In this document: positions 43,550 through 49,340 of the stretch, piece after piece | How positions within the stretch are numbered: position 1 is the first letter of the stretch | Layout: every line of letters starts with the position of its first letter | Origin: Roseburia hominis A2-183 | GTDB lineage: Bacteria > Bacillota > Clostridia > Lachnospirales > Lachnospiraceae | DNA: 64,000 nucleotides | Direction of reading: 5' to 3' | Assembly: GCF_000225345.1 (NCBI RefSeq) | Contig: NC_015977.1 | Coordinates: 1,347,501-1,411,500 of the forward strand | Position numbers and translations under genes: made by a program | Notes under the pieces: generated by a model | Seen by the model: the letters and a program-made list of their open reading frames with translations, nothing else | Databases searched by the model: none | What the model was told of the DNA's origin: nothing

Positions 43550-43571
43550 AAAGAATATTCTTATGACAGAG

Positions 43572-43616
43572 AACTGTCATCCTATCGAACCAGGTTCGGT
43601 AGGGTGACAGTTTTTT
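43572..43616 (+). terminator. glyQS terminator
   Basis: Long imperfect stem (43572-43590 / 43593-43612) with few wobbles, followed by TTTTTT. It separates glyQS from the sortase cluster. Confidence 0.9.
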
Positions 43617-43743
43617 CGTTATAGGATACGTGTCGCAAGTGACCGCGCCTGGCGGGGGAATCCTGTCTGCGGTATTTTTTGAAATTAGGAAATAATGTCT
43701 AAAAATGGTGGGCAGATGACAAGAAATATGGCAGAAAATAATA

Positions 43744-43776
43744 TTGACAAAAAAATTGGGGGGGGGGGGGTACAAT
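43744..43776 (+). promoter_or_regulatory. sortase-cluster promoter with poly-G spacer (likely phase variable)
   Basis: TTGACA (43744-43749), a 21-nt spacer (43750-43770) made of AAAAAATT plus a run of 13 G (43758-43770), then TACAAT (43771-43776). Nine G would give the optimal 17-nt spacing. The sequenced state is 4 nt too long and should be weak. The srtB start is 31 nt behind the -10 box. Confidence 0.85.
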
Positions 43777-43807
43777 CATAGTAGAATCACAGTAGGAGTT
43801 CGGTGAA

Positions 43808-44623
43808 ATGTTAAACGAAGAAAAAGAGCAGCAAAAGAAAAAACAGATACACAGGATTGCACAGATTGTACTGGCAGGCATTGCCATTGTGTGCATTTTG
43901 TACCTTGTGGTTCACACTGTCCGGCAGGCGATGATTCAGCGCCAGTATGAACAGATGAGTCAGGAGAGCGTTGTGGTTCAGGCAGAAGTTACAGAGCAGA
44001 TCGAAGCGCAGATTTATGGACCGGTTCCTAAGGTGGATTTTGATACGCTGTGGCAGACAAATGAAGATATTTGTGCATGGATTTATATACCGGACACGAA
44101 AGTCAGCTATCCGGTGCTGCGCAAGCAGGATGCAGAGAATCCCTATGATGATTATTATCTGTCACACACTGCGGAAGGGCAGAATGGTCTGCCGGGATCT
44201 ATTTATGTCGAACCATGCAATGCCGGAGATTTTTCAGATAATAACACGGTAGTCTATGGACATCATATGAAAAACGGCACTATGTTTGGATCACTGCATG
44301 AATATCAGGATGAAAGCTATATGGAGAAGCATCCATATGTCTATGTGATTACACCGGAAAGGGAACGGGTTTATCAGGTGTTCGCTGCAATAGCTTATGA
44401 TGACAGACACCTGATGGGCAGCTTTGCATCCTTTACAGAACCGGAGGAAAGAGAGGCATTTTTAAGTTCCCTCAAGGAAAATGGCGATGAGACGGATGTT
44501 ATACGCGAAGATATTGCGGTGACAGCGGATAGTAAATTGCTGACGTTGTCGACCTGCATTAAAAATCAAAGTGAAAAACGTTTGCTGGTGGAGGCGGTAC
44601 AGGTCTATGAGAGTGAGACATAA
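43808..44623 (+). CDS. srtB: class B sortase
   Basis: 271 aa. A basic N-terminus and one membrane helix (about 18-38) anchor it outside. The catalytic His152 lies in YGHHMKNGTMF, Cys250 in LSTC and Arg258 in KRLLVEA. DICAWIYIPDTKVSYPVL is the usual N-terminal block of class B enzymes. It cleaves sorting signals and attaches proteins to peptidoglycan; clostridial SrtB recognises (S/P)PxTG-like motifs, and the cluster encodes a protein with SPKTG. AGGAG lies 9 nt before the ATG. First gene behind the poly-G promoter. Confidence 0.93.
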   Translation: MLNEEKEQQKKKQIHRIAQIVLAGIAIVCILYLVVHTVRQAMIQRQYEQMSQESVVVQAEVTEQIEAQIYGPVPKVDFDTLWQTNEDICAWIYIPDTKVSYPVLRKQDAENPYDDYYLSHTAEGQNGLPGSIYVEPCNAGDFSDNNTVVYGHHMKNGTMFGSLHEYQDESYMEKHPYVYVITPERERVYQVFAAIAYDDRHLMGSFASFTEPEEREAFLSSLKENGDETDVIREDIAVTADSKLLTLSTCIKNQSEKRLLVEAVQVYESET

Positions 44624-45629
44624 AAGAACCTTGGCATGCCGTATCCTGCTGGCTGTTCTGCTTCTTGTCATAATCGTATGCGCAGCAGCGGGAGGAATTT
44701 GGCTTTCTGCCATGCACAGTCTGGGAAAACATGCCGTATGTGGGACGGATTCGGGATATGAGACAGATGGATGCGTGTTAGAAGACACCGTCTTGTACCA
44801 TGGAAAAACTTACCGCCGGAATGAAAAAATCAGCACGATTCTGTGTATGGGACTGGATACAGAAAATGATATGAAGTCCGCCGGCGGTGTGATTGGTTCA
44901 GGCGCACAGTCAGATGCCAATTTTCTTGTGGTGATCGACCGGGAGCAGAAAAAATTGCGGATTGTGGCAATTCCGCGTGACACGATGACGGATCTGGAAA
45001 CGTTCTATATGACGGGGGAGCCGCTTGGATTACTGCAGGATCATCTGGCACTCCAGTATGCATTTGGGGATGGAGGCACAAAAAGTTGTGAATTGGTGGA
45101 ACGTGCAGTGTCGAGACTATTTTATAATCTCCCGATTGATGCATATGTCACATTTAGTCTGAATTCCATTGAGAGTCTGAATGGAATGGCTGGCGGGGTG
45201 ACGGTTTTTCTGGAACAGGATTTTGAGAACTACCATGCGGGAGAGACAGTAACGCTCAATAATGAGCAGGCGTATCGTTTTGTGAGGTGGAGAGACTGCG
45301 ATGAAGCGTACAGTGCGCAGTATCGTCTGCAACGGCAGAAAGAGTATCTTACAGCATTTGTGGAAAAGGTCATTGGTGAGACGAGAGCCGATCTTAGAAC
45401 ACCGTTCCGGATGTATGCGGGCATTTCAGATTCTGTGCTGACGAACCTCTCCAGAACCCAGATACTATCACTTGCGCTGACAGGGATTTCCTGCGGATTT
45501 TCAGAGGAAAGCCTGCAGGTGGTTCCGGGAGAACAGGTGATGGGAGATTATTATGAAGAATTTCATGTGGATGAGGAACAGTTCTATGAGATGATATTGG
45601 ATCTGTTCTATATCGGGGAAGATTCTTGA
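44607..45629 (+). CDS. LytR-CpsA-Psr (LCP) family protein
   Basis: 340 aa from the ATG at 44607, overlapping srtB by 17 nt, so the two are translationally coupled. One membrane helix (about 10-35) leads to an extracytoplasmic LCP domain: ILCMGLDTE, SDANFLVVID, VAIPRDTM with the conserved Arg, and YRFVRWRD near the C-terminal part. LCP enzymes move polymers from undecaprenyl phosphate to peptidoglycan. Pairing with a sortase suggests wall decoration coordinated with the surface protein that follows. Confidence 0.9.
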   Translation: MRVRHKRTLACRILLAVLLLVIIVCAAAGGIWLSAMHSLGKHAVCGTDSGYETDGCVLEDTVLYHGKTYRRNEKISTILCMGLDTENDMKSAGGVIGSGAQSDANFLVVIDREQKKLRIVAIPRDTMTDLETFYMTGEPLGLLQDHLALQYAFGDGGTKSCELVERAVSRLFYNLPIDAYVTFSLNSIESLNGMAGGVTVFLEQDFENYHAGETVTLNNEQAYRFVRWRDCDEAYSAQYRLQRQKEYLTAFVEKVIGETRADLRTPFRMYAGISDSVLTNLSRTQILSLALTGISCGFSEESLQVVPGEQVMGDYYEEFHVDEEQFYEMILDLFYIGEDS

Positions 45630-45688: not shown

Positions 45689-46411
45689 ATGAAGAAAATT
45701 ATCACAATCGTAGCAGCAATGGTTCTTACATTCGCTGTAAGCACAACTGCATTTGCTGCACCGAGCGTAACCAACAATGCAACAAGTGGTACAACATCAG
45801 GCAGCGGTACCAGCACAAGCACATCCACTTCCACATCAAATGGAAGCGTAACTTATGTAAGAAATTTCAGCGCAGTAGCTGCAACGGCAACAGATGCAAA
45901 CGGCAATGCAATTGAGGTACAGGTAAAACAGCTGACCGCAGCCCAGGTAGCAGCGGCACAGGCAGCTGTAACAGCTCAGTTTGGACAGAATGTAGATGTG
46001 CTGGGAGCTGGCGACTATAGTGTTGCAGGCGCATCTGAGACCAACCCGGTTACACTGAAATTCTCTGTTGCTGTAAGTGCAGGAGATAATGTATGCATTT
46101 TACATCAGCATCATGACGGTAACTGGTATGTAGAGTCTGCAACAGCAGGAGATGGCGTTGTGACGGCAACCTTTACTTCCTTCTCCCCGATGGCAATTAT
46201 CCGCATTCCGGCTGCAACTGTTGCATCCAGTGATAACAATAATTACTCACCGGAATATTATGAGGCAATGAAGACTGGAAACGGTACTTCTGCCGGAACA
46301 ACAGCAGTGACCTCCCCGAAGACAGGTGAGGGCAGTGCGTTTGGCATTGCAGCACTTGCTGCAGTATGTGCATGTGCATGCGTGATCGTAAGAAGAAAGA
46401 AGATCGCATAA
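45689..46411 (+). CDS. secreted surface protein with SPKTG sortase signal
   Basis: 240 aa. Signal peptide 1-24 with AFA-A cleavage, then a low-complexity S/T/G region (about 30-52) and a compact beta-rich domain (about 53-180). A linker leads to SPKTG (209-213), a hydrophobic helix (about 216-233) and the basic tail RRKK. This is a complete cell-wall sorting signal of the non-LPXTG kind used by class B sortases. AAGGGAAG precedes the ATG. The gene ends the cluster and has a strong terminator. Its frequent GTA, GCA and ACA codons differ from the GC-rich neighbours. Ligand or function unknown. Confidence 0.85.
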   Translation: MKKIITIVAAMVLTFAVSTTAFAAPSVTNNATSGTTSGSGTSTSTSTSTSNGSVTYVRNFSAVAATATDANGNAIEVQVKQLTAAQVAAAQAAVTAQFGQNVDVLGAGDYSVAGASETNPVTLKFSVAVSAGDNVCILHQHHDGNWYVESATAGDGVVTATFTSFSPMAIIRIPAATVASSDNNNYSPEYYEAMKTGNGTSAGTTAVTSPKTGEGSAFGIAALAAVCACACVIVRRKKIA

Positions 46412-46448
46412 TTTAAGAAAGAAGAATAGTTCATTTTTGTGTGGGGAG

Positions 46449-46477
46449 AGAGACCGGCAGAGTGCCCGGTCTCTTTT
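46449..46477 (+). terminator. sortase-cluster terminator
   Basis: Perfect 9-bp stem AGAGACCGG / CCGGTCTCT (46449-46457 / 46466-46474) followed by TTTT including the last stem base. Confidence 0.85.
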
Positions 46478-46703: not shown

Positions 46704-49340
46704 ATGGCGAACAAATGGGTTTATATGTTTAGCGAAGGCGACATGACCATGCGTAATCTGCTCGGTGGTAAGGGTGCCAACCTTGCAGAGATGACAAGCA
46801 TCGGACTTCCTGTACCACAGGGATTCACAATCACAACAGAGGCTTGTACGCAGTACTACGAGGATGGACGTAAGATCAACGACGAGATCATGGCGCAGGC
46901 TATGGAAGGCGTTAAGAAGATGGAGGAGATCAACGGTAAGAAATTCGGTGATCTGAAGAATCCGTTACTGGTATCGGTACGTTCCGGTGCGAGAGCTTCC
47001 ATGCCGGGTATGATGGACACCATCTTAAATCTTGGATTAAATGATGACGTAGTAGCAGCAATGATCGCAGGAAACCCGGATCCGGCATTCGAGCGTTTCG
47101 TATATGATTCCTACAGACGTTTCATTCAGATGTTCTCTGACGTCGTTATGGAAGTTGGTAAGAAGTATTTTGAGCAGCTCATCGATAAGATGAAAGAGGA
47201 GAAGGGTGTTCAGTACGACATCGACCTCACCGCTGCTGACTTAAAGACTCTGGCAGAGCAGTTCAAGGCTGAGTACAAGAATCAGCTGGGAACTGATTTC
47301 CCGTCAGATCCTGTAGAGCAGTTAAAGCTTGCAATCGAGGCTGTATTCCGTTCTTGGGACAACCCGCGTGCAAACGTATACCGTCGTGACAACGATATCC
47401 CGTATTCCTGGGGTACTGCAGTTAACGTAATGCCTATGGTATTCGGTAACTTAAACAACGAGTCTGGTACAGGTGTTGCATTCACCCGTGATCCGGCAAC
47501 CGGTGAGAACAAGCTTATGGGTGAGTTCTTAATCAATGCACAGGGCGAGGACGTTGTTGCAGGTGTCCGTACACCTATGCCGATCGCTCAGATGGAGCAG
47601 GAGTTCCCGGAGGCATACGCTGAGTTCTTAAAGGTTTGCGAGACTCTTGAGAACCATTACCATGATATGCAGGATATGGAGTTCACAGTAGAGAACAAGA
47701 AGCTCTACATGTTACAGTGCCGTAACGGTAAGAGAACAGCTCCGGCTGCATTAAAGATCGCTTGCGACCTCGTAGATGAGGGACACAAGACAGAGGAAGA
47801 GGCAGTATTGATGATCGACCCGCGTAACCTCGATACACTGCTTCATCCGCAGTTCGATGCTGCTGCATTAAAGGCTGCTACACCGATGGGCAAAGGTCTT
47901 GGAGCATCTCCTGGTGCTGCCTGCGGTAAGATCGTATTCACTGCAGAGGATGCAGAGGCTTGGAATGCAAGAGGAGAGAAGGTCGTATTAGTACGTCTTG
48001 AGACATCTCCGGAGGATATCACTGGTATGAAGGCTTCCCAGGGTATCTTAACCGTTCGTGGCGGTATGACATCTCACGCTGCCGTAGTTGCACGTGGTAT
48101 GGGTACCTGCTGTGTATCCGGATGCGGCGACATCGCTATGGACGAGGAGAATAAGAAGTTTACACTGGCCGGCAAAGAGTTCCATGAGGGAGACTGGATC
48201 TCCATCGACGGTACAACCGGTAATATCTATGATGGCGAGATCAAGACTGTTGACGCTACCATCGCAGGCGAGTTCGGACGTGTTATGGCATGGGCTGACA
48301 AGTACAGAACATTAAAGGTTCGTACCAATGCAGATACACCGGCAGACGCTAAGAAAGCTCGTGAGCTTGGCGCTGAGGGTATCGGACTTTGCCGTACAGA
48401 GCATATGTTCTTCGAGGAAGACAGAATTGCTGCATTCCGTGAGATGATCTGCTCTGATACCGTAGAGGAGAGAGAAGCTGCCCTTGATAAGATTCTTCCG
48501 TATCAGCAGGGTGACTTTGAGAAGTTATACGAAGCACTGGAAGGCTGCCCGGTAACCATTCGTTTCCTGGATCCGCCTCTTCATGAGTTCGTTCCGACAG
48601 AGGAAGCTGACATCGAGAAGCTTGCAAAAGCTCAGGGCAAGTCTGTTGAGACAATCAAGAACATCATCGCTTCTCTGCATGAGTTCAACCCGATGATGGG
48701 TCACAGAGGATGCCGTCTTGCAGTTACCTATCCGGAGATTGCAAAGATGCAGACAAAGGCTGTTATCCGTGCAGCAATCAACGTACAGAAGGCTCATCCG
48801 GACTGGACTGTAAAGCCGGAGATCATGATTCCGCTTGTATGCGAAGTAAAAGAGTTAAAGTATGTGAAGAAGGTTGTTGTTGATACTGCTGACGCTGAGA
48901 TTGCAGCAGCAGGTGTAAAGCTTGAGTATGAAGTAGGAACAATGATCGAGATCCCGAGAGCAGCTCTGACTGCAGACGAGATCGCAACAGAGGCTGATTT
49001 CTTCTGCTTCGGTACAAACGACCTGACACAGATGACATTCGGTTTCTCTCGTGATGATGCAGGTAAGTTCTTAAATGCTTACTATGATACCAAGATCTTC
49101 GAGAACGATCCGTTTGCAAAACTGGATCAGACAGGTGTCGGCAAGCTGATGGATATGGCAATCAAGCTTGGCAAGCCGGTAAATCCGAAGCTTCATGTAG
49201 GTATCTGTGGAGAGCACGGTGGAGATCCTTCTTCCGTAGAGTTCTGCCACAAGATCGGTCTGGATTATGTATCCTGCTCACCGTTCCGTGTGCCGATCGC
49301 TCGTCTTGCAGCAGCACAGGCAGCAATCGCAAACAAATAA
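46704..49340 (+). CDS. ppdK: pyruvate, phosphate dikinase
   Basis: 878 aa, full length. The order is an N-terminal ATP-grasp domain (LLGGKGANLAEMTSIGLPVPQGFTI is split by few changes from the family), the phosphohistidine domain with GGMTSHAAVVARGMG, and the C-terminal PEP/pyruvate barrel with catalytic Cys in VGICGEHGG. It interconverts pyruvate, ATP and phosphate with PEP, AMP and pyrophosphate, a central step in clostridial glycolysis and gluconeogenesis. Strong AGGAGG, and a marked preference for CGT, GAG and AAG codons, suggests very high expression. Monocistronic. Confidence 0.97.
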   Translation: MANKWVYMFSEGDMTMRNLLGGKGANLAEMTSIGLPVPQGFTITTEACTQYYEDGRKINDEIMAQAMEGVKKMEEINGKKFGDLKNPLLVSVRSGARASMPGMMDTILNLGLNDDVVAAMIAGNPDPAFERFVYDSYRRFIQMFSDVVMEVGKKYFEQLIDKMKEEKGVQYDIDLTAADLKTLAEQFKAEYKNQLGTDFPSDPVEQLKLAIEAVFRSWDNPRANVYRRDNDIPYSWGTAVNVMPMVFGNLNNESGTGVAFTRDPATGENKLMGEFLINAQGEDVVAGVRTPMPIAQMEQEFPEAYAEFLKVCETLENHYHDMQDMEFTVENKKLYMLQCRNGKRTAPAALKIACDLVDEGHKTEEEAVLMIDPRNLDTLLHPQFDAAALKAATPMGKGLGASPGAACGKIVFTAEDAEAWNARGEKVVLVRLETSPEDITGMKASQGILTVRGGMTSHAAVVARGMGTCCVSGCGDIAMDEENKKFTLAGKEFHEGDWISIDGTTGNIYDGEIKTVDATIAGEFGRVMAWADKYRTLKVRTNADTPADAKKARELGAEGIGLCRTEHMFFEEDRIAAFREMICSDTVEEREAALDKILPYQQGDFEKLYEALEGCPVTIRFLDPPLHEFVPTEEADIEKLAKAQGKSVETIKNIIASLHEFNPMMGHRGCRLAVTYPEIAKMQTKAVIRAAINVQKAHPDWTVKPEIMIPLVCEVKELKYVKKVVVDTADAEIAAAGVKLEYEVGTMIEIPRAALTADEIATEADFFCFGTNDLTQMTFGFSRDDAGKFLNAYYDTKIFENDPFAKLDQTGVGKLMDMAIKLGKPVNPKLHVGICGEHGGDPSSVEFCHKIGLDYVSCSPFRVPIARLAAAQAAIANK

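Follow-up and report, generated by a model that had tools for sequence, protein, structure and literature searches.

The srtB Locus of Roseburia hominis A2-183

The window, that is, the whole stretch of 64,000 nucleotides that was analysed, corresponds to positions 1,347,501-1,411,500 of the genome of R. hominis A2-183, which consists of one contig of 3,592,125 bases. Between glyS and ppdK, the window carries three genes of particular interest (Table 1). The first one, srtB, encodes a class B sortase which passes the curated cut-off of its TIGR03064 profile. The second one encodes a LytR-CpsA-Psr (LCP) protein and overlaps the end of srtB. The third one encodes a surface protein for which a Pfam search found no family. 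Its matches to NCBIfam are weak only, such as that to the NPXTG anchor profile NF033846 (16.2 bits, below the cut-off of 23.5), and the LPXTG profile TIGR01167 is not among them, the scan of the genome with this profile having found one other protein only. The protein is called sorting-signal-like because an SPKTG motif, a hydrophobic stretch, and an RRKK tail are seen by eye at its C-terminus. We infer that the srtB, LCP, and SPKTG genes are carried on one transcript.

Table 1: Features of the srtB locus, in positions of the window.
Feature	Position	Strand	Evidence
Intrinsic terminator after glyS	43560..43625	+	stem with 20 or more pairs and a T tail; fold -40.7 kcal/mol, z -10.2
-35 box TTGACA	43744..43749	+	sequence
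Spacer, 21 nt: AAAAAATT (43750-43757, read directly) + G13	43750..43770	+	sequence
Poly-G tract of 13 G, directly before the -10 box	43758..43770	+	sequence and run counts
-10 box TACAAT	43771..43776	+	sequence
Shine-Dalgarno-like AGGAG (putative function), 9 nt upstream of the srtB start	43794..43798	+	sequence
srtB, class B sortase, 271 aa	43808..44623	+	PF04203; TIGR03064, 161.7 bits (cut-off 153.75)
LCP (LytR-CpsA-Psr) protein	44607..45629	+	PF03816, 65.3 bits (cut-off 24.6); start codon inferred
Surface protein, 240 aa: signal peptide-like start, C-terminal SPKTG, hydrophobic stretch, RRKK tail	45689..46411	+	by eye
Terminator-like hairpin between operon and ppdK	46446..46477	+	hairpin search
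ppdK	46704-49340		

The promoter in front of srtB combines a perfect TTGACA with TACAAT, which agrees with TATAAT in five of six positions. It had been described in the earlier note as the two boxes framing a 21-nt spacer with 13 consecutive G, and direct reading of the sequence confirmed this description exactly. The start of srtB lies 31 nt 3′ of the -10 box, and genes that are surface-exposed or surface-modifying are directly downstream of the poly-G promoter and under its putative control. The terminator after glyS should keep transcription from upstream out of the sortase operon. Because this terminator is strong and lies upstream, the poly-G promoter is likely to be the main promoter of the operon. 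The G run might instead have arisen by chance in an inactive or minor promoter, the operon being transcribed from another start, and weak promoter-like matches do occur just upstream, at 43679-43745. Such an origin is quite improbable in view of the quality of both boxes, the terminator, the short distance to the gene start, and the similar arrangement found in four relatives of the same genus and in one relative of another genus (described below).

Long G Tracts in the Genome

On both strands of the window, the tract is the sole run of at least seven G, and the next longest run of G or C has six. The whole genome holds three runs of at least eight G on either strand, with 13 (the srtB promoter), 10, and 8 nucleotides. 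A first-order model with the composition of the window leads to an expectation of about 93 runs of at least 8 and 0.13 runs of at least 13 per genome. As only three are present, long G runs are avoided overall and the 13-G tract is an outlier.

A tract between HsdS half-ORFs is a classic contingency site. The run of 10 G in R. hominis (genome G000; G000:C1:2879415-2879424, L032:1499-1508) is situated at the junction of two ORFs of 201 and 169 aa, both of them carrying a type I specificity domain (PF01420), and these HsdS halves probably form a phase-variable restriction-modification specificity gene. With one in a promoter spacer and the other between HsdS halves, the two longest G/C tracts of the genome are both found at contingency-type sites. 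The run of 8 G (G000:C1:2926376-2926383, L033:1502-1509) stands at the start of a small ORF and is possibly another slippage site; the gene shortly downstream is presumably MobA/MobL-like. Neither the 10-nt nor the 8-nt tract lies in a promoter spacer.

Homopolymers are a weak point of 454 sequencing. The A2-183 genome was sequenced with a combination of Sanger and 454 GS20/FLX data (PMC4645204), and the exact count of 13 G is therefore uncertain. The same data could be invoked to regard the run length, or even the tract itself, as a homopolymer error. This is extremely improbable for the tract, since the same architecture is present in 42 other Lachnospiraceae genomes and before similar clusters; it is the exact number of 13 that stays doubtful.

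A Class of Poly-G Spacer Promoters in the Lachnospiraceae

The architecture was searched in 397 Lachnospiraceae genomes as the pattern TTGACA-N(2-14)-G8-N(0-5)-TANNNT, which yielded 62 distinct sites (72 rows) in 43 genomes. As a control, the pattern was reversed, and it then matched in none of the 397. When G8 was replaced by C8, 8 distinct sites (9 rows) were obtained in 6 of the 397 genomes, with 1 in the backwards control. The poly-G promoter architecture is beyond chance. Run lengths within the class extend from 8 to 13 G, the tract of the srtB promoter being the longest of the 62, and spacers extend from 10 to 21 nt, that of R. hominis being one of the two joint longest. The spacers peak at 19 nt and 39 of the 62 measure 18-20 nt, lengths that the requirement of at least eight G in the search pulls upward. 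At 53 of the 62 sites, nothing separates the G run from the -10 box.

These regularities can also be read in terms of a fixed long-spacer promoter, the chief rival to phase variation, in which the G run would be a structural element working at 18-20 nt, either by contacts of G just before the -10 box or by formation of compact A-like DNA, and in which the differences between species would be the outcome of slow drift, populations showing no switching. The position of the run against the -10 box, the bias of G over C, and the peak of the spacers at 19 nt are all in agreement with it. On the other hand, the length of the left part of the spacer and that of the G run show no compensation for each other (correlation +0.12, n = 56), which fits a spacer whose length follows that of the run without constraint, and homopolymers of 8-13 G are generally unstable; both points count against a fixed promoter. 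The placement of the run has a further possible basis in extended -10 promoters, where a G just before the -10 box helps sigma. Such an aid to sigma would explain both why the G run abuts the -10 box and why it is rarely made of C.

The distribution of the architecture was also followed beyond the family. In 341 genomes spread over the taxonomic class, the abutting form of the pattern gave 9 sites in 7 genomes, all 7 among the 328 genomes outside the Lachnospiraceae, with 0 in the backwards control. The same abutting filter, applied to the sites of the family search, was passed in 33 of 397 genomes within the Lachnospiraceae versus these 7 of 328 (odds ratio 4.2, p 2e-4). The G run of R. hominis exceeds the length that this narrower pattern allows, and its site is therefore missed. 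When the pattern was relaxed to five or more G directly before TANAAT, 22 of 150 genomes contained a total of 28 sites, the backwards control matching in 2 of 150, and several of the shortest of these matches may be ordinary promoters. In viral contigs, a scan for 7 G returned at least 81 sites at 80 loci among the matches listed, many of them outside this class, and a stricter scan returned 12 sites.

Promoter-type tracts are a small part of the G tracts of the family. In 60 Lachnospiraceae genomes, 300 tracts of at least eight G were counted, of which 10 were of the strict promoter type; in a sample of 30 tracts, a promoter-like spacer was recognized in 3, two of these with an exact TTGACA. 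Most Lachnospiraceae G tracts are therefore something else. Two genomes of one Lachnospiraceae genus, G119 and G429, hold about 40 tracts of at least eight G each (loci L190-L197, L337-L361, and L366-L430), with a marked peak at exactly 10 G and many tracts that appear coding by eye. By a loose rule, 5 of 38 tracts in G119 and 9 of 44 in G429 resemble promoter spacers. This genus looks like the bearer of a large poly-G phasome.

The genes behind the class promoters were read at 61 of the 62 loci, 57 sites having a first gene not more than 250 nt away; these first genes mostly begin about 15-180 nt from the -10 box. Their products were classified by a simple hydrophobicity rule of our own, which is crude and was applied to machine-called ORFs. 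An exported-type N-terminus was assigned in this way to 36 of the 57 first genes versus 100 of 329 other ORFs of at least 100 aa at the same loci (Fisher p 4e-6), and an exported type with at most two transmembrane segments to 33 of 57 versus 55 of 329 (p 3e-10). This bias toward exported proteins is a further point against the fixed long-spacer promoter. The Pfam families of the first genes include BspA leucine-rich repeats, Big_2 and other Ig-like domains, choline-binding repeats, dockerin, and solute-binding proteins. Pilus-type ATPase, ABC ATPases, a NusG-like protein, GGDEF, and others including cytoplasmic enzymes are also found behind the class, and many genes in this position have no Pfam family.

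srtB Clusters in Relatives and Their Phylogeny

A slightly looser pattern was run on 62 genomes of the genus and gave 11 sites (12 rows) in 11 genomes; read backwards, it matched in 2 of the 62. Five of the 11 sites lead a class B sortase cluster, namely, those of R. hominis and of four other species of the genus, G020, G034, G800, and G008. In these four relatives, the promoter is followed by the gene of a small surface protein with SPKTG or SPKTA at its end, then by the LCP gene and srtB; in G008, the LCP gene is an open frame that was recognized by eye as LCP-like. In many relatives, the sortase gene lies about 2 kb downstream of the promoter, behind other genes. The sortases of the three relatives tested (G020, G034, and G800) pass TIGR03064, and the surface proteins of G034 and G800 pass TIGR01167 with 17.6 and 20.3 bits against a cut-off of 15.9. 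The gene after srtB in G020, G034, and G800 is presumably signal peptidase-like. A sixth cluster belongs to a genome of another genus, G430, where the promoter is followed, in this order, by a surface protein (SPNTG) and by LCP and sortase relatives. Tract and spacer lengths in the six clusters are 13 G and 21 nt in R. hominis, 11 G and 20 nt in G020, 10 G and 20 nt in G800, 10 G and 19 nt in G430, and 8 G and 18 nt in both G034 and G008.

Two further genomes, G340 and G308, each have a sortase relative behind a poly-G promoter, but at 30 and 28% identity these are more distant and were excluded from the six clusters. The combination of a small surface protein of SPKTG/SPKTA/SPNTG type, an LCP protein, and a class B sortase makes up a recurrent cluster (loci L175, L519, L520, L521, and L526), with neighbouring genes that we take to be signal peptidase-like and YlqF-like.

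The sortase tree was built from 28 sequences labelled by the presence of a poly-G promoter; G340 was entered as unlabelled and forms a very long branch, and G308 is outside the tree. The sortases of G020, G034, G800, G008, and G430 form one clade (99/98) together with that of G002, which was scored as unlabelled, its contig ending before the promoter. The R. hominis sortase pairs with that of G006 (100/99), apart from the other five clusters. In G006, srtB is placed between glyS and ppdK as in R. hominis, and neither an LCP gene nor an SPKTG gene nor a poly-G promoter was found at this locus. The tree needs three label changes, of which the well-supported branches force at least two, so that srtB clusters either gained the promoter on more than one occasion or lost it on branches in between. 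The order with srtB first, which is peculiar to R. hominis among the clusters of the genus, argues for separate histories.

Another 20 srtB loci of the genus, retrieved together with their flanks and some of them truncated by contig ends, showed no such promoter; a poly-G promoter before srtB is not universal in the genus. When the promoter DNA of R. hominis was compared with 60 genomes of the genus, 12 gave a match, and all matches were coding except those in its own genome and in G003, the latter being a match of 29 nt that runs just past the -35 box. The comparison of the R. hominis locus with viral contigs gave 0 matches.

Tract Lengths at Homologous Promoters

Differences in tract length, all of them between genomes, loci, or contigs and not within one clone, were collected at homologous promoters. 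In front of the same ABC gene, the three genomes of one genus that were compared have 11, 10, and 9 G. Two loci of a single genome, G137, carry G7 and G9TG with flanks that are 90% identical over 409 bp. The four copies of the promoter of a repeated element (L261, L327, L462, and L463) have 9, 9, 6, and 6 G with flanks of 84-90% identity, and the G119/G429 pair differs by 9 versus 11 G. Among phages, two contigs of one metagenome (L263 and L282; IMG/VR) show 8 versus 10 G within conserved promoter flanks. In another phage pair, which is identical over 1000 bp upstream and 99.8% identical over 989 bp downstream, a tract of 12 G is opposed to an interrupted 15-nt version, whose interruptions may be sequencing errors. 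Similar srtB clusters also differ between species, as listed above.

Three candidate comparisons were rejected: the length variants L367 and L386 of G429, where the contig ends inside the tract; G068 and phage L226, which have 15 promoter letters in common; and the G7 and G8 promoters of G139, whose common stretch is 47 bp. It was also noted that the poly-G promoter of L261, L327, L462, and L463 sits at the end of the repeated and perhaps mobile element, and that the promoter of L263 and L282 has a short inverted repeat around its -35 and -10 boxes, the two contigs differing downstream.

That tract lengths differ among close homologues, even inside one genome, counts against a fixed long-spacer promoter. 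Together with the absence of compensation, the exported first genes, and the instability of long G runs, this has weakened the fixed promoter to an unlikely, though still the most serious, competitor of phase variation.

Probable Spacer-Length Switching of the srtB Operon

In the preferred reading, the 13-G tract makes the spacer length variable in a phase-variable promoter of sigma-A type that serves the srtB-LCP-SPKTG operon, which we consider probable on the strength of sequence comparison. The same design recurs with other run lengths in relatives, and the tract therefore probably switches the operon via slippage. According to the proposed mechanism, slipped-strand mispairing in the G tract would alter the distance between the -35 and -10 boxes by single bases, with a rate and a reversibility that are presumed here. 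The altered spacing would change promoter strength and, in this way, presumably the level of transcription. Cells of one clone would consequently differ in their amounts of class B sortase, LCP protein, and putative surface substrate. Several observations given above count against this reading: the clustering of spacers at 18-20 nt, srtB of G006 and the 20 further loci lacking a poly-G promoter, the single short match to the promoter DNA, the small share of promoter-type tracts in the family, the possible sequencing error in one phage pair, the matches in the backwards controls of the looser searches, and the weak promoter-like matches upstream.

The earlier note had already proposed that the promoter of a sortase cluster has in its spacer a G tract prone to slippage, and this part has gained strong, if indirect, comparative support from the existence of the class, the repeated srtB clusters, and the length differences between homologues. 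Its optimum of 9 G, corresponding to a 17-nt spacer, finds no support in the class, where spacers of 18-20 nt prevail under a search that favours long ones. Given the class mode of 19 nt, 10-11 G (18-19 nt) is a better candidate, and the best expression would be expected nearer to these lengths. The deposited state may plausibly be a weak one, its 21-nt spacer being one of the two joint longest.

Classical srtB clusters serve iron acquisition; in R. hominis, by contrast, srtB stands next to an LCP gene and to the gene of a surface protein of SPKTG type. As regards the mode of control, the fimbriae promoter of Haemophilus influenzae is comparable in that indels in the promoter region control a surface structure. 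The element involved there is a dinucleotide repeat in a divergent promoter and not a G homopolymer. This promoter is named in PMC9187656 and in the reference list of PMC5084427. A closer parallel is given by Neisseria meningitidis, where, according to PMC2791445, the porA, fetA, and opc tracts lie between the -10 and -35 boxes and are thought to alter sigma-factor binding. The likeness consists in a homopolymer within the promoter spacer of surface genes. The differences are the Gram-positive Lachnospiraceae host, an anchoring operon in place of a porin or receptor, and a modal spacer of 19 nt among the sites found.

In Bifidobacterium breve UCC2003, as reported in PMC9187656, tracts of about 9-12 G in bbr_0113 and bbr_1889 control sortase-dependent pili, and their slippage was shown by maximum depth sequencing, with shifts in mice. 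Promoter-spacer tracts in UCC2003 are also mentioned by the authors (PMC9187656). The resemblance to R. hominis is that, in a commensal of the gut, a G tract is tied to surface structures that involve a sortase; unlike the R. hominis tract, that of B. breve lies inside coding sequence and acts by frameshift. Searches of the open-licence PubMed Central literature brought up, among the matches listed, no account of promoters in Roseburia or Lachnospiraceae that switch by poly-G tracts, and the main text of the R. hominis mouse transcriptome paper (PMC5622956) gave no match for sortase or phase variation. Switching of this kind, the porA type, is known; what is new is the lineage, the spread across the family, and the repeated association with srtB clusters.

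A broader proposal is that the Lachnospiraceae possess a general and so far undescribed phase variation of surface genes through poly-G spacers, which would have been recruited more than once to clusters that unite a surface protein, an LCP protein, and a class B sortase. As the G run touches the -10 box, a promoter-favourable G would be kept at every length, and the tract would act as a graded dial rather than as an on/off switch. We regard this extension as evenly balanced between being right and being wrong. Tract lengths can be counted in reads, which makes the claim of switching directly testable.

R. hominis, a bacterium of the human gut, produces butyrate, declines in ulcerative colitis, and has been put forward for medical use (PMC4645204). 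Random switching of its surface anchoring operon, if real, would make any clonal culture of R. hominis a mixture of surface types. If the broader proposal is true, a good share of the gut Lachnospiraceae would join the phase-variable bacteria by means of a cheap switch that can be read from sequence.
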